The notes beneath the pieces are model-generated. The model was not told the DNA's origin. It saw nothing but the letters and a program-made list of their open reading frames with translations, and made no database searches. Positions 23,519 through 32,005 of a stretch of DNA of 38,413 nt are shown here, piece by piece. A program made the position numbers and the translations under genes. The first letter of the stretch is position 1; every line of letters begins with the position of its first letter. The stretch is from positions 1-38,413 of the forward strand of contig SIRW01000118.1 of assembly GCA_004366205.1 (NCBI GenBank), written 5' to 3'. The stretch is from Actinomycetota bacterium (GTDB lineage: Bacteria; Actinomycetota; Acidimicrobiia; Acidimicrobiales; CADCSY01).

Positions 23519-24180
23519 GCCGGCGCTACCGCGACCGTGCGCACGCGGGCGCCATCCTCGCCGAGGAGCTCCTCGCTCTCGAGCCGGGACCCCACCCCGT
23601 CGTGTGCGCCCTCGTGCGCGGCGGCGTGCCGGTGGCCGCCCCCGTCGCCGCCGCGCTCGGTGCACCCCTCGAGCCGTACCTGGTCCGCAAGCTCGGCGTG
23701 CCCGGCCACGAGGAGCTGGCGATGGGCGCGCTCGCCGGCGACGGCACCATCGTCCGCAACGCCGACGTCATGGCGCGGTTGGGCCTGACCGACGGCGACC
23801 TCGCCCGGGCCGTGCAGCGCGAGCAGGCCCGCATCCGCGAGCAGCTCCACACGCTGCGGGGCGACCGCCCCATGCCGGCGCTCACCCGACGGTGGGTCGT
23901 GCTGGTCGACGACGGGCTGGCCACCGGCGCCACCATGCGGGCAGCGGTGGCCGCCGTCCGCCACAACGATCCGGCGCGGGTCACCGTCGCCGTGCCCGTG
24001 GGCGCCCCGCAGACCTGCGAGCTCGTCGCCCGTGAGGCCGACGAGCTGGTGTGCCCCTTGCAGCCTCCCGGGTTCGCCGCCGTGGGCGCCTGGTACGACC
24101 GCTTCGACCAGGTGAGCGACGCCGAGGTGCGGGCGATCCTCACCGCCGCCGAATCCCGCGGCCAACGGCCCCCCGGATAA
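23515..24180 (+). CDS. Phosphoribosyltransferase-family protein
   Basis: A 221-aa type I PRTase-fold protein. The PRPP-binding motif is [18 protein letters not shown] (about 123-140), with the two Asp residues and the TGAT loop intact. The N-terminal [20 protein letters not shown] gives the PPi-loop region, and [20 protein letters not shown] is typical of the predicted PRTases often annotated as ComF-like or as fused to dienelactone hydrolases. It resembles no purine or pyrimidine PRTase closely enough to name. The GTG start overlaps the patatin stop. The hemE promoter box overlaps its own stop codon. The biochemical substrate is unknown. Confidence 0.87.
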
Positions 24181-24183
24181 CGT
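24178..24183 (+). promoter_or_regulatory. -10 box TAACGT for hemE
   Basis: TAACGT starts within the TAA stop of the preceding gene and lies 8 nt before the GTG at 24192. It gives the heme genes a start point of their own in addition to readthrough. Confidence 0.5.
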
Positions 24184-24191
24184 CGGCGGTC

Positions 24192-25262
24192 GTGGTCGCC
24201 GCCTCCGCCGCCTCCACCGAGGCCCCGTTCCTCGCCGCCTGCCGCCGGCAGCCCGCCACCCGCGTGCCGGTCTGGTTCATGCGCCAGGCGGGCCGCTCGC
24301 TGCCGGAGTACCACCGGATCCGAGGCGAGGGCAGCATCCTGCAGGCCATCAAGCAGCCCGAGCTGGCCGCCGAGATCACGCTGCAGCCCGTCCGCCGGTA
24401 CGGCGTCGACGCCGCCATCCTCTACTCCGACATCGTCGTACCCGTGCACGCCATCGGCCTCGGCGTGGACATCGCGCCCGGCGTCGGGCCGGTGGTCGAC
24501 GAGCCCATCCGCCGGGCGGCCGACCTCGAGCGCATCCGCGCCCTCGAGCCCGACGAGGACGTCCCCTACGTCCAGGAGACCGTCCGCATCCTGGCGCGGG
24601 AGCTGCCGCCGGAGGTGCCGCTGATCGGCTTCGCCGGCGCCCCGTTCACGGTCGCCAGCTACCTGATCGAGGGGCGTCCCTCCCGCGACTACGCCCACAC
24701 CAAGGCCCTCATGTGGAGCGAGCCCGCCACCTTCCACCGCCTGATGGCGGCCATCGCCGAGCTGTCGCTCGCGTCGCTGCGTGCCCAGGTCGAGGCGGGG
24801 GCGCGGGCAGTGCAGCTGTTCGACAGCTGGGCGGGCGCGCTCGCCCCCGACGACTACCGGGAGCACGTCCTGGCGCACAGCGCCCGCATCTTCGCGGGGC
24901 TGGCCGACCTGGACGTGCCCCGCATCCACTTCGGGGTGACCACCGGCGAGCTGCTGCCTCTGCTCGCCGAGGCCGGCGCCGACGTGGTCGGCGTCGACTT
25001 CCGGGTGCCGATCGACGTGGCCTGGGCGCGCGTCGGTCCCGGCGTCGCCGTGCAGGGCAACCTCGACCCGGTCGCCTGCCTGGCGCCCTTCGAGGTCACC
25101 GCCGCCAAGGCGCGCGACGTGCTCGCCCGGGTCGGTGGCCGCCCCGGCCACATCTTCAACCTCGGTCACGGCGTGCTCCCCCAGACCGACCCCGCCAACC
25201 TCGAGCGCCTGGTCGAGCTCGTCCACGCCGAGGGCCGTGCTGGCACCGGGGTGGCGTCGTGA
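24192..25262 (+). CDS. hemE: Uroporphyrinogen III decarboxylase
   Basis: Cytoplasmic enzyme that decarboxylates the four acetate side chains of uroporphyrinogen III to give coproporphyrinogen III. The 356-aa product has the family motifs: [14 protein letters not shown] (Arg pair), LYSDIVVP (catalytic Asp), [15 protein letters not shown] (Tyr), [10 protein letters not shown] and [10 protein letters not shown] (His). The GTG at 24192 is supported by a -10 box 8 nt upstream and by the length; the frame stays open upstream but without similarity. The stop overlaps the ferrochelatase GTG (GTGA), so translation is coupled. It heads a hemE-cpfC-cgoX operon. Confidence 0.97.
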
Positions 25263-26207: not shown

Positions 26208-27608
26208 ATGGCGCGGCGCGTCGCCGTCGTGGGCGGCGGGATCACCGGCCTGGCCGCGGCCCACGCCCTGCAGGCGGCGGGCGCTGAGGTCGTGCTGCTC
26301 GAGGCCGGCGACCGGCTCGGCGGCAAGATCCACACCGAGGACTTCGACGGCCTCCCCGTCGACACCGGCCCCGACGCCTTCCTCGCCCGGGTCCCGTGGG
26401 CGACGGCGCTGTGCCGGGAGCTGGGCCTCGGCGACCAGCTCGTCTCACCCTCGTCCGGGGCGTGGATCTGGTCGCGGGGCCGGCTCCACGCCCTGCCCGA
26501 CGGGCTGGTGCTGGGCGTGCCCGCCCGGCTGCGGCCGCTGGCCCGGTCCGGCATCCTCTCGCCCCTCGGCCGGGCCCGGGCCGGGCTCGACGTCGTGCTG
26601 CCCCGGCGCACGGGGCGGGCCGGCGACGGCGACGTCGCCGTGGGCCGGCTCGTCCGGGCCCGGCTGGGCCACGAGGTGGCCGAGCGCCTCGTCGACCCGC
26701 TCGTCGGGGGGATCAACGCGGGCGACGCCGACCACCTGAGCACCGCCGCGGCCGTGCCCCAGCTGGCCGACGTGGCCCGCCGGCACCGCAGCCTGGTGCT
26801 GGGCCTGCGGGCGCAGCGGCGCGCCAACCCGCCCGACCCGGCGGCGCCGGTGTTCTACTCGCTGCCCGGTGGGCTGGGCGTGCTCGTCGACGCGCTCGCC
26901 GCCGCGCTCGGGGCCGTCGACGTGCGCATGAGGACGCGGGTGACGGCGCTCACGCCCGCACCGGGCGGCTTCCGCCTCGACACCGAGGGGCCCGACGGGC
27001 CCGCCGACCTGCCGGTCGGCGCCGTCGTGCTCGCTACGCCCGCCTTCGTCACCGCGCCGTTGCTCGCCGGCCACGTGCCCGCGGCCGCCGCCCACCTCGG
27101 CGCGATCGAGCACGCGTCGGTCGCCCTCACCCTCATGGCGTTCCCGAGCGCCGCCGTGCCCGGGCCGCTCGAGGGGACCGGCCTGCTCGTCCCCCGCCCC
27201 GAGCGCACCCTCACCACCGCGGTGACCTGGGCGTCGAGCAAGTGGCCCCACCTAGCCCGCCCCGACCGGGTCCTGCTGCGGGTCTCGGCGGGACGTCACG
27301 GCGACCGGCGGGCGCTCGAGCTCGACGACGGCGACCTCGTCTCGGCGCTGCTGCCCGAGCTGGAGCGCATCATGGGCATCCGCGACGCCCCGGCGGGCTG
27401 GCGGGTGCACCGCTGGGAGCGCTCCTTCCCGCAGTACACCCCCGGCCACCTCGACCGGGTCGCCGCCGTCGAAGCCGCCGTGGCCGAGGCCCTGCCTGGC
27501 GTCGCCCTGGCCGGTGCCGCCTACCGGGGCGTCGGCATCCCCGCCTGCATCCGCCAGGGCCAGCAGGCCGCCCAGCGCGTGCTCGCCCACCTCGACACCC
27601 GTCGGTGA
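26208..27608 (+). CDS. cgoX: Coproporphyrinogen/protoporphyrinogen III oxidase (HemY/CgoX)
   Basis: FAD-dependent oxidase that removes six hydrogens from coproporphyrinogen III (in the coproporphyrin route) or from protoporphyrinogen IX. The 466-aa protein starts with the dinucleotide-binding motif VAVVGGGITGLAAAHAL and LLEAGDRLGGKIHTE. Typical HemY features follow: DTGPDAFLARVPWA, DPLVGGINAGDADHLS, FYSLPGGLGVLVDALA and a C-terminal VALAGAAYRGVGIPACIRQG with the FAD-binding Gly residues. It sits 4 bp after cpfC. A coproheme decarboxylase (hemQ/chdC), needed to finish this route, is not in the window. CgoX versus HemY cannot be proved by reading alone. Confidence 0.93.
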   Translation: MARRVAVVGGGITGLAAAHALQAAGAEVVLLEAGDRLGGKIHTEDFDGLPVDTGPDAFLARVPWATALCRELGLGDQLVSPSSGAWIWSRGRLHALPDGLVLGVPARLRPLARSGILSPLGRARAGLDVVLPRRTGRAGDGDVAVGRLVRARLGHEVAERLVDPLVGGINAGDADHLSTAAAVPQLADVARRHRSLVLGLRAQRRANPPDPAAPVFYSLPGGLGVLVDALAAALGAVDVRMRTRVTALTPAPGGFRLDTEGPDGPADLPVGAVVLATPAFVTAPLLAGHVPAAAAHLGAIEHASVALTLMAFPSAAVPGPLEGTGLLVPRPERTLTTAVTWASSKWPHLARPDRVLLRVSAGRHGDRRALELDDGDLVSALLPELERIMGIRDAPAGWRVHRWERSFPQYTPGHLDRVAAVEAAVAEALPGVALAGAAYRGVGIPACIRQGQQAAQRVLAHLDTRR

Positions 27609-27718: not shown

Positions 27719-29263
27719 ATGCGCCAGCATCGGGACATGCAGGGAGGCCGGGACGCGCTGCGCCGCGCCGTCACGGGGTTGGGAGCCGGCCTCCTCCTGA
27801 CCGCCGCGCTACCCCCGTTCGGGTGGTGGCCGCTGGCCTTCGCGGGCATCGCCGTGCTCGACCGGGCCATCGCCGGCCAGGCTCCCCGCAACCGGGCCCT
27901 CGCGGGGTACGCGTGCGGCCTCGGCCTGCTCGTGCCCGGACTGTGGTGGATGGGCGAGTTCACCCTGCCCGGCACCGTGATCGCCATGCTGTTCTTCGCC
28001 GGCATGTTCACCGCCGGCCCGCTGCTGGCCGGCGGCAGCCGCTGGCGATGGCTCGGGCTGCCCGGCGCCGTCGTGCTCGTCGAGGCCGTGCGGGGCGCCT
28101 GGCCCTTCGAGGGCGTCCCCATCGCGACCGTCGCCCAGACCCAGATCGGCGGGCCCCTGGCCTACTCGGTGCGCCTGGGCGGGCCGCTCCTCCTCGCCCT
28201 GCTCACCGTCGCGGCCGGCATCGCTCTCAGCGCCGCCTGGGAGCGGGCGTGGCGCCCCGCCGGTGTCGCCGCCGCCGTGGTGGTCGCCGGTACCGCCCTG
28301 GGCCTCCTCGCCCCCCACGGCGCCGCGACCGGTGCGGTGATCGACGTCGCCCTCGTCCAGGGCGGCGGCGAGAAGGGCACCCGGGCCGTGGAGACCGGCA
28401 AGGCCGGCGTGTACGAGGCGCACCTGGCGGCCAGCGAGCGGATCCGGCCGGGGGTCGATCTGGTGCTGTGGCCCGAGGACGTCGTCGACGTCGGGGGGGT
28501 GGCGATCGCCGAGTCGGCGCGGGCCGCCGAGGTCGCCCGCCTGGCCGCCGAGCTCGACACCACCGTCGTCGCCGGCGCCATCGAAGGGGCGGGCGACCGG
28601 TTCCGGAACCTGGCGGTCACGTGGGACCCCGCCGGTCGGATCCTCGGCGAGTACGAGAAGAACGTGCGGGTGCCCTTCGGCGAGTGGATCCCGTTCCGGA
28701 GCCTGCTCGACAACCTCGCCGACCTCTCGGCCGTCCCCCGCGACGCCACCGTCGGGCAGGGCCCCGGGTTCGTGTCGACCCCCGCGGGCGACCTCGGCAT
28801 GGTGATCTCCTGGGAGGTGTTCTTCCCCCGGCGGGCGCGCGCCGCGGTGGACGCCGGCGGCGAGGTGCTGCTCGTGCCGACGAACGCGTCGTCGTTCTCG
28901 ACCGTGCAGATGCCCGCCATCGAGCTGCAGGTGGCCCGGCTCCGGGCGCTCGAGACCGGACGCTGGACGCTCCAGGCGGCCCCGACCGGGTTCAGCGGGG
29001 TGATCGACCCCGCCGGCCGGGTGCAGCAGCACTCCGACCTGCGGGCCCAGCAGGTGCTGCACGCCACCGTCGAGCGGCGCACGGGCCACACGCCCTACGG
29101 CGCCACCGGCGACCTGCCGGTCCTGGCGGTCGCCGCCCTGCTGCTCGGCGCCGCCGCCGTCCCCCTCGTCCGGACCCGTGGCGCCCGGGGCCCGGCGGCG
29201 CCGGACCGCCCGCCGGCGCGCCCCGGCGAGGGTCGGAGCGGCGCCGGTGCCGCCAGCACGTGA
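27719..29263 (+). CDS. lnt: Apolipoprotein N-acyltransferase homologue with Ser at the catalytic Cys position
   Basis: Membrane protein of about 514 aa (ATG 27719) or 508 aa (ATG 27737). Lnt adds the third acyl chain to lipoproteins. The N-terminal half has about six hydrophobic segments (GLGAGLLLTAALPPFGWWPL onward); the C-terminal half is a nitrilase domain. Numbered from 27719, Glu253 in LWPEDVV and Lys314 in EYEKNVRVPFGEWIP match the E. coli triad Glu267 and Lys335. The third position, E. coli Cys387 in VICYE, is Ser364 here (VISWE, codon TCC at 28808). Other loop residues (GEWIP, the Glu after the nucleophile, PTNASSF) are kept. Activity as a true Lnt is therefore open. Ser variants of actinobacterial paralogues are known to me from memory. 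It converges with dtd (3 bp apart). Confidence 0.85.
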   Translation: MRQHRDMQGGRDALRRAVTGLGAGLLLTAALPPFGWWPLAFAGIAVLDRAIAGQAPRNRALAGYACGLGLLVPGLWWMGEFTLPGTVIAMLFFAGMFTAGPLLAGGSRWRWLGLPGAVVLVEAVRGAWPFEGVPIATVAQTQIGGPLAYSVRLGGPLLLALLTVAAGIALSAAWERAWRPAGVAAAVVVAGTALGLLAPHGAATGAVIDVALVQGGGEKGTRAVETGKAGVYEAHLAASERIRPGVDLVLWPEDVVDVGGVAIAESARAAEVARLAAELDTTVVAGAIEGAGDRFRNLAVTWDPAGRILGEYEKNVRVPFGEWIPFRSLLDNLADLSAVPRDATVGQGPGFVSTPAGDLGMVISWEVFFPRRARAAVDAGGEVLLVPTNASSFSTVQMPAIELQVARLRALETGRWTLQAAPTGFSGVIDPAGRVQQHSDLRAQQVLHATVERRTGHTPYGATGDLPVLAVAALLLGAAAVPLVRTRGARGPAAPDRPPARPGEGRSGAGAAST

Positions 29264-29266
29264 CCG

Positions 29267-29704
29267 TCAGGTCTCGAGCAGCAGCGTGACGGGCCCGTCG
29301 TTGCACAGCTCCACGGCCATGTGGGCGCGGAAGCGCCCCGTGGCGACGGGCGCCCCCGACGACCGGACGCGGTCGGCCACGGCCGCCACCAACGGTTCGG
29401 CCTGCTCGGGTGGCGCTGCCCCGACCCACGACGGCCGCCGGCCCCGGCTCGTGTCCCCGTAGAGGGTGAACTGCGGCACGACCAGGACGCCGCCGCCGGT
29501 GTCGAGCACCGAGTGGTTCATCAGGCCCTCGCCGTCCTCGAACACCCGCAGGTGCACGACCTTGTCGGCCAGCCTCGCCGCCCGGGCGGCGTCGTCGTCG
29601 TGGGTCACGCCGACGAGCACGCACAGGCCGGGACCGATCTCGCCGGCGACCTCGCCCTCGACCCGGACCCGGGCCCACGCCACCCGCTGCACCAGCCCCC
29701 GCAC
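29267..29704 (-). CDS. dtd: D-aminoacyl-tRNA deacylase
   Basis: Cytoplasmic proofreading enzyme that hydrolyses D-amino acids (and Gly) from mischarged tRNA. The 145-aa product has the full DTD pattern: [17 protein letters not shown] at the N-terminus, [22 protein letters not shown], the active-site segment [18 protein letters not shown] (family SQFTLYG; Pro in place of Ser), and the C-terminal Gly-cisPro motif [11 protein letters not shown]. The GTG at 29704 gives the expected N-terminus. It is divergent from the mutarotase gene (72 bp) and convergent with the lnt-like gene. The Ser-to-Pro change in SQFTLYG occurs in other bacterial members. Confidence 0.95.
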
Positions 29705-30625: not shown

Positions 30626-30649
30626 ATCCGGCGAACCTTGGCGGTCCCT

Positions 30650-32005
30650 ATGCCCACCCTGGACCCGTCCTCGCTGCGCGTCGCGCTCCTCGCCTACCGG
30701 GGCAAGCCCCACTGCGGGGGCCAGGGCGTGTACGTGAAGCACCTCAGCCGCGAGCTCGTCGAGCTGGGCCACCGGGTCGAGGTCCTGTCGGGACCGCCCT
30801 ACCCCGAGCTCGACCCGCGGGTGGCGCTCACCCGCCTGCCGAGCCTCGACCTGTACCGCGAACCCGACCCGTTCCGGATCCCCCGGCCCTCGGAGCTCCG
30901 CAGCCGGGCCGACCTGGCCGAGCTCGCCATCATGTGCACCGCCGGCTTCCCCGAGCCCCGCACGTTCAGCTGGCGGGCCCGGGCCGAGCTCGCCCGGCGC
31001 GCCGGCGAGTTCGACATCGTGCACGACAACCAGTGCCTGGGCCCGGGCCTGCTCGGCATCCAGCGGTTGGGGCTGCCGGTGCTGGCCACGATCCACCACC
31101 CCATCACCGTCGACCGGCGGCTCGAGATCGACCACGCCTCGGGCCCGATCCGGCGCCTCACCCTGCGCCGCTGGTACGGCTTCACCGCCATGCAGAGCCG
31201 GGTCGCCCGGCGGCTCCCGCGGGTGCTCACCGTCTCGTCGTCGTCGGCCGAGGACATCGTGCGGGACCACGGCGTCGACCGCGACCGCATCCACATCGTG
31301 CCCGTCGGCGTCGACCCCGACCTGTTCCGGCCGATGCCCGAGGTCCCCCGGGTGCCCGGGCGGTTGATGACCACCGCCAGCGCCGACGTGGCCATGAAGG
31401 GGCTCGTGCACCTGCTCGAAGCCGTCGCCAAGTTGCGCACCGAGCGCCCCGAGGTCGAGCTCGTCGTCATCGGCAAGCCGACGGCGGACGGGCCCGTCGC
31501 CCGCACGATCGACCGGCTCGACCTGGCCGGCGCCATCCGGTTCGTGAGCGGCGTCTCCGACGAGCGCATCGTCGAGCTCTACGCCGAGGCCGAGGTCGCG
31601 GTCGTCCCGTCGCTGTACGAGGGGTTCTCGCTGCCGGCCATCGAGGCTATGGCCTGCGGCGTGCCGCTCGTGGCCACCACCGGGGGGGCCCTGCCCGAGG
31701 TGGTGGGCCGCCACGACGAGACGGGGGTGCTGGTCCCGCCCGCCGACCCCGGGGCGCTGGCCACCGCCATCGCCGGGCTGCTCGACGACCGCGCCCGGCG
31801 CGACCGCATCGGCGCCGCCGGCCGGGCCCGCGCCGCGGAGCGCTACAGCTGGCGGGAGACGGCCCGCGCCACCGCCGATCAGTACCGGGCGCTGCTCGCC
31901 GAGCAGGGCCGGCTGCCCGCCGCCGGCGCCGCCACGACCGGCCCCGCGCCCGCCGCGGCCGTCACCGCCCCGGCACCCGACCCGGGAGAGCCCGCGCCGT
32001 GCTGA
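30650..32005 (+). CDS. GT4 glycosyltransferase, first gene of a three-gene operon
   Basis: A 451-aa GT-B retaining glycosyltransferase. The N-terminal domain starts LRVALLAYRGKPHCGGQGVYVKHLSRELV, with the Gly-rich GGQGVY acceptor loop. DIVHDNQCLG and TIHHPITVDRRLEID follow. The donor domain has PVGVDPDLFRP, TTASADVAMKGLVHLLEAVA and the GT4 signature VVPSLYEGFSLPAIEAMACG with two Glu residues. The last 30 or so residues are a Pro/Ala tail absent from typical relatives. ATG 30650 is preferred; an in-frame TTG lies four codons upstream. Its stop is overlapped by 7 bp by the methyltransferase GTG, so the two are co-translated. The acceptor is unknown. Confidence 0.9.
   Translation: MPTLDPSSLRVALLAYRGKPHCGGQGVYVKHLSRELVELGHRVEVLSGPPYPELDPRVALTRLPSLDLYREPDPFRIPRPSELRSRADLAELAIMCTAGFPEPRTFSWRARAELARRAGEFDIVHDNQCLGPGLLGIQRLGLPVLATIHHPITVDRRLEIDHASGPIRRLTLRRWYGFTAMQSRVARRLPRVLTVSSSSAEDIVRDHGVDRDRIHIVPVGVDPDLFRPMPEVPRVPGRLMTTASADVAMKGLVHLLEAVAKLRTERPEVELVVIGKPTADGPVARTIDRLDLAGAIRFVSGVSDERIVELYAEAEVAVVPSLYEGFSLPAIEAMACGVPLVATTGGALPEVVGRHDETGVLVPPADPGALATAIAGLLDDRARRDRIGAAGRARAAERYSWRETARATADQYRALLAEQGRLPAAGAATTGPAPAAAVTAPAPDPGEPAPC

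Follow-up and report, generated by a model that had tools for sequence, protein, structure and literature searches.

A putative serine-nucleophile acyltransferase on the apolipoprotein N-acyltransferase (Lnt) scaffold in Acidimicrobiales

Is an apolipoprotein N-acyltransferase (Lnt) homologue in which the catalytic cysteine is replaced by serine a working enzyme, and if so, what does it acylate? The question is raised by an open reading frame in the window, i.e. the whole 38,413-nucleotide stretch of DNA analyzed here, which is contig C112 of a 3.44-Mb draft genome in 119 contigs with 100% estimated completeness. The ORF begins with ATG at 27719, ends at 29263 on the forward strand, and encodes a 514-residue protein (P0001) that scored 170.8 bits with the TIGR00546 profile, over the curated equivalog cut-off of 132.9 bits (NCBIfam). 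It contains an LNT_N membrane domain (residues 23-168, nucleotides 27785-28222; Pfam PF20154, 71.6 bits) followed by a nitrilase-like CN_hydrolase domain (residues 210-453, nucleotides 28346-29077; Pfam PF00795, 71.2 bits), both on the forward strand, the domain nucleotide coordinates being computed from residue numbers. Alignment with E. coli K-12 Lnt matched Glu253 (28475-28477) with the proton acceptor Glu267, Lys314 (28658-28660) with Lys335, Glu322 (28682-28684) with Glu343, the fourth catalytic residue, and Glu366 (28814-28816) with Glu389, all codons again lying on the forward strand. The nucleophile Cys387 is replaced by Ser364 (codon TCC, 28808-28810, forward strand) within the motif VISWE. 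The ORF, its residues and the alignment thus confirmed a preliminary description of this DNA, which had reported an Lnt homologue with Glu253, Lys314, and Ser364. Equivalents of Glu267, Lys335, and Glu343 are all present and that of Cys387 is absent, so that the cysteine expected of the Glu-Lys-Cys thiol enzymes of the nitrilase superfamily is missing, and we therefore classed the protein as an Lnt-type serine variant instead of a standard Lnt. Trp237 is listed as essential in E. coli Lnt, and its equivalent here is Ala223; however, Trp was found in just 7 of 84 Cys rows, and since most of these rows also lack it, this residue is unusable as an Lnt criterion in Actinomycetota. His425 is not retained either, its equivalent being Glu402 (28922-28924, forward strand), and Asp413 corresponds to Ala390 (28886-28888, forward strand), a candidate co-changed position. 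The Thr458 and Arg125 contacts of Lnt are retained in the same alignment.

The AlphaFold2 model of the protein, for which 24 family rows served as input, had a mean pLDDT of 92.8 and a pTM of 0.90. Its top VIA-align match was E. coli Lnt 8b0p (Z 40.5, 2.8 Å over 471 residues, 24% identity), and the E. coli Lnt C387S structure 8b0m scored almost the same (Z 40.2); these values are a rescoring of Foldseek matches and not an independent search. The predicted fold is that of Lnt, with LNT_N joined to CN_hydrolase as in members of this family.

According to PMC5500888 and PMC8048626, E. coli Lnt follows a ping-pong mechanism, in which Cys387, once deprotonated by Glu267, accepts the sn-1 acyl chain as a thiolate, Lys335 and Glu343 stabilize the intermediate, and the lipoprotein amine then receives the acyl group; the former source describes the nitrilase superfamily as thiol enzymes. 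The E. coli C387S variant is reported to make an oxygen-ester acyl intermediate with no subsequent transfer (PMC6828757), the swap of the Lnt nucleophile is given elsewhere as "serine (low activity)" (PMC10313180), and a review calls C387S inactive (PMC8689077). Since acyl-serine can form in C387S, the question for a natural serine form concerns the second step, the transfer. A mycobacterial paralogue mentioned in the preliminary description does exist: BCG_2279c carries Ser where E. coli has C387 and, as reported in PMC3850990, did not replace BCG_2070c for four lipoproteins. This was the only natural serine-type Lnt found in a literature search, outside of which lay subscription papers and preprints.

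How widely is the serine form distributed? Among 59 relative genomes, 47 had an over-cut-off Lnt, and their 48 matches comprised 47 with Ser (29 of 30 fetched loci, 17 further loci and the window) and one with Cys (L003 in genome G030, which also has a Ser copy, L149). A fragment below the cut-off (L161 in G023) had Ser as well, and the weak regions L162 and L163 contained no Lnt. Among named genomes, the 80 loci of highest similarity, Geodermatophilus and Blastococcus included, all showed Glu-Lys-Ser (80/80); the patterns used for the scan left out the nucleophile but contained the PTN motif typical of the home clade, and the set is consequently biased to that clade. The best 30 Lnt matches by score in the phylum, a set selected by closeness to the standard Lnt model, all had Cys. 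With a home-clade model, full-length members scored at least 450 bits and the next group at most 305, one partial match reaching 361. Altogether 291 rows were read, being chosen loci and not a random sample or every match, and they carried Ser in 200 cases, Cys in 91 and any other residue in none (189 and 90, respectively, among 279 distinct nitrilase domains); rows from outside Actinomycetota were E. coli Lnt, save oddly titled records among the 80 loci. The residue sets were Glu-Lys-Glu-Ser-Glu (199), Glu-Lys-Glu-Cys-Glu (87), Glu-Lys-Glu-Cys-Asp (4), and one fragment. Apart from this fragment, equivalents of Glu253, Lys314, and Glu322 were invariant in 290 of 290 rows, and the Glu366 column held Glu in 287 rows and Asp in 4. 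Judged from this conservation, catalysis is under purifying selection, with Glu/Lys/Glu invariant and only Ser or Cys as nucleophile. The suggestion that the serine is a clean substitution rather than decay was thereby borne out, the catalytic Glu/Lys/Glu being invariant and the Ser kept in relatives.

Outside the home clade, Ser was also found in other orders of the class (families f51, f52, f53, f113, f118, f123, f126, and f127), in certain second copies from f78, f85, and f92, and in the f77 second copies L188 and L189, whose genomes carry L044 and L038 with Cys in addition. All 13 f55 genomes read had Ser as well. Families of the class with Cys include f112, f114-f117, f119-f122, f124, f125, and f128-f132. 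Cys was likewise present in Streptomyces-like and further groups that were read. An Acidimicrobiales-type Ser gene occurs in Geodermatophilus, Blastococcus, and G301 (L112, L129, L186), the last of which has a Cys lnt (L187) in addition, and lateral transfer is the likely source. Records titled Bacillus sp. AZ43 (unverified; L130) and Bifidobacterium breve (L081, L104, L113, L127) hold Geodermatophilaceae- or Acidimicrobiales-type genes and are probably mislabelled.

The history of the substitution was followed in trees built with the nucleophile column removed. A quick tree of 141 rows required five Ser/Cys changes, starred branches forcing four of them; in a careful tree built from 84 rows the number was again five, and here every change was forced by starred, i.e. 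supported, branches. None of the 200 bootstrap trees for the 84 rows had just one change, and constraining Ser to a single clade cost 392 log-likelihood units and was rejected (AU p 4.6e-53). The Ser lineages are the home clade, other Acidimicrobiia orders together with the f78/f85/f92 copies, the f77 copies, and f55. In f121 (L215 and L220 alike), Cys is nested in a Ser clade, which looks like a return to Cys. The five changes thus apparently comprise four gains of Ser and one return, a polarity that rests on Cys in E. coli and most deep branches, as the tree root was not inferred. Among 163 located Ser rows, 142 used a TCN codon and 21 an AGY codon. Within the home clade, as sampled in the 141-row tree, TCN and AGY switched four times with Ser unchanged, and hence Ser was held through changes that take two base steps. 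As far as sequences can tell, repeated origin of Ser followed by its retention speaks for a functional variant and not for a broken enzyme.

The preliminary description had also considered an inactive or changed-function paralogue and suggested a search for a second, Cys-type Lnt. Neither PF00795 nor TIGR00546 detected such a gene in the 119-contig draft: TIGR00546 gave one match in the source genome (G000), and the two CN_hydrolase matches to PF00795 were the lnt ORF and an NAD+ synthase, the latter assigned at 276.8 bits on a 239-residue piece, below the full-length cut-off of that model. With 119 contigs at 100% estimated completeness, an overlooked copy is unlikely, though possible. The same pattern held among the relative genomes with an over-cut-off Lnt, of which 46 of 47 had exactly one match and 46 of 47 the Ser form alone, and this speaks against the notion of a paralogue. 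Both upstream enzymes of the proposed pathway are encoded in the source genome, Lgt (PF01790, 147.7 bits) on contig C85 and LspA (PF01252, 111.4 bits), each on a contig other than that of lnt. Among the 148 class genomes, the source genome included, Lgt was found in 143, LspA in 141, and an Lnt match in 130, with two matches in only four (G347, G352, G387, and G362). Every copy read in G347, G352, and G387 had Cys. G362 carries two Ser-type lnt genes in tandem (L234, C7:16772-21449), and no Cys copy was found there. The Ser form was retained in all 14 f113 genomes read, which are about 0.9-1.1 Mb in size. An Lnt match was absent from 18 of the 148 genomes; nine f22 and two f32 genomes, at least 96% complete, are without lnt and yet have both Lgt and LspA, which indicates that Lnt function is dispensable in these members of the order.

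Alignment columns were screened for those in which four or all five of the Ser groups depart from the Cys norm; beside the nucleophile, only 150, 390, 400, and 402 were returned. Column 390 held Asn or Asp in 79 of 91 Cys rows versus 2 of 180 Ser rows; it corresponds to E. coli Asp413, two residues past Ser411, whose reported position is close to the thiol. In a phylogenetic pair test, which with five pairs cannot reach 0.05, position 390 changed in the same direction in 3.6 of 5 pairs and in the opposite direction in none (not significant), position 150 in 2.9 and 0.4, and position 402 in 1.8 and 0.2 pairs, respectively. The five Ser groups are not five independent cases, because group D is sister to B. 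Position 402 corresponds to E. coli His425, which lies beside Cys387 and is able to raise its nucleophilicity (PMC5500888). Loss of this histidine as a specific mark of the Ser switch was rejected, as Gln already predominates there in the Cys-bearing group that is sister to the home clade. From these alignments, 390 is a better candidate than 402 for a co-changing position.

The gene neighborhood was compared over 86 loci. Recurrent neighbors were URO-D (hemE; 24051-25262 in the window) in 43 loci, an amine oxidase/hemY-like gene (26208-27608) in 59, dtd (29267-29704, -) in 44, and a GT4 glycosyltransferase (30638-32005) in 58; the counts are low estimates, because many loci stop close to lnt. 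No functional pointer emerged from the neighborhood of these 86 loci. An Lgt gene lies 2.4-6 kb from a Ser-type lnt in six loci (L255, L256, L257, L258, L135, and L141), of which L255-L258 were fetched after this proximity had already been seen, the 80 named-genome loci containing only two (L135 and L141).

Of the alternatives put forward in the preliminary description, a Ser-using acyltransferase fits best to the conservation. We consider it an even chance that the protein is a serine-nucleophile apolipoprotein N-acyltransferase working through an oxygen-ester acyl-enzyme, with lipoproteins as its putative N-acylation substrate. This reading is favored by the Lnt fold, Glu/Lys/Glu, the clade-wide Ser, the lack of any other Lnt found, and the presence of Lgt and LspA. 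In such an enzyme, Glu253 would activate Ser364, onto which the sn-1 acyl chain would be loaded from a phospholipid in oxygen-ester linkage; the intermediate would be stabilized by Lys314 together with the oxyanion hole, and the acyl group would then pass to the alpha-amine of the diacylglyceryl-cysteine made by Lgt and LspA, yielding a triacylated lipoprotein. The altered pocket (Ala390, Glu402) may permit the slower ester aminolysis, which is a guess. Against this reading stand the poor activity of C387S, the loss of Trp237 and His425, the genomes of the order without Lnt and, chiefly, the negative result with BCG_2279c. The weight of this last result is limited, because a Cys Lnt does the work in that organism and here the Ser form is alone.

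An active serine acyltransferase on the Lnt scaffold could instead serve another acceptor, such as a hydroxyl on a glycolipid or on a wall polymer, or the N-terminus of a protein without a lipobox. Lnt homologues can switch acceptor, as AatD does in acylating N-terminal glycine with its cysteine kept (PMC7943197), BCG_2279c was not the Lnt of the four lipoproteins studied in PMC3850990, and a GT4 gene is frequent in the neighborhood (58 of 86 loci). However, the remaining frequent neighbors give no direction, Glu322 and the Thr458 and Arg125 contacts of Lnt are retained, and in the order of the window the Ser form is the only Lnt alongside Lgt and LspA, so that we regard another acceptor as unlikely. 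A catalytically dead Lnt, retained for a role in chaperoning, regulation, or lipoprotein binding, would agree with the inactivity of BCG_2279c and with the subsidiary role ascribed to Streptomyces Lnt2 (both PMC3850990), but a pseudoenzyme would hardly show Glu, Lys, and Glu, along with either a hydroxyl or a thiol as nucleophile, in every one of 290 rows, or persist as the sole copy in genomes of about 1 Mb, and this explanation appears quite improbable. Acyl-serine esters are commonly hydrolyzed in lipases, and a phospholipase-like hydrolase, in which the acyl group would be passed from the acyl-serine to water, is conceivable. It would accord with the first step alone being performed by E. 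coli C387S (PMC6828757), but the lipid-facing membrane domain and transfer geometry are retained in the model and there is, short of modelling, no hint of a gained water-activating residue, which makes hydrolysis more doubtful still. Finally, an error of sequencing or assembly in codon 28808, named beforehand as a possible refutation and suggested by nothing except that the window is one contig of a draft genome, has practically no probability, since Ser recurs with differing codons in 47/48 relatives' matches and 80/80 named loci; together with the restriction to Ser or Cys in 291 rows, this conservation rules out read error, decay, and pseudogene alike.

Returning to the serine N-acyltransferase, we tentatively propose, at somewhat short of an even chance, that it evolved at least four times in Actinomycetota with one return, that it is the sole lipoprotein N-acylator in whole orders, and that, unlike in bare C387S, pocket changes enable efficient ester aminolysis. 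If this is true, a natural Ser form extends over whole orders and phospholipid-to-lipoprotein transfer can proceed without a thiol. Antibiotic development has Lnt among its targets, and the inhibitor tested in PMC6828757, MTSES, is thiol-specific; thiol-directed Lnt inhibitors would then miss these bacteria. The four gains and one likely return would also provide matched natural pairs for finding residues that rescue a Cys-to-Ser swap.

Among known systems, E. coli Lnt (TIGR00546; 8b0p, 5n6h) shares the two-domain fold along almost the entire chain and the equivalents of Glu267, Lys335, Glu343, and Glu389, but the protein described here has Ser for Cys387, Ala for Trp237, Glu for His425, and Ala for Asp413. 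The engineered E. coli C387S (5vrh, 8b0m) has the same nucleophile and the same fold; it is, however, a laboratory mutant with low or no transfer, whereas here Ser occurs naturally over whole clades and is accompanied by other pocket changes. BCG_2279c (Rv2262c/Rv2261c) is likewise a natural Cys-to-Ser Lnt homologue (PMC3850990), but it is a second copy beside a working Cys Lnt, and the Ser form of the source genome is the sole copy. AatD, the glycine N-acyltransferase of the Aat system, is an Lnt homologue whose acceptor differs from that of Lnt (PMC7943197); it retains the cysteine (C325), in contrast to the serine found here.
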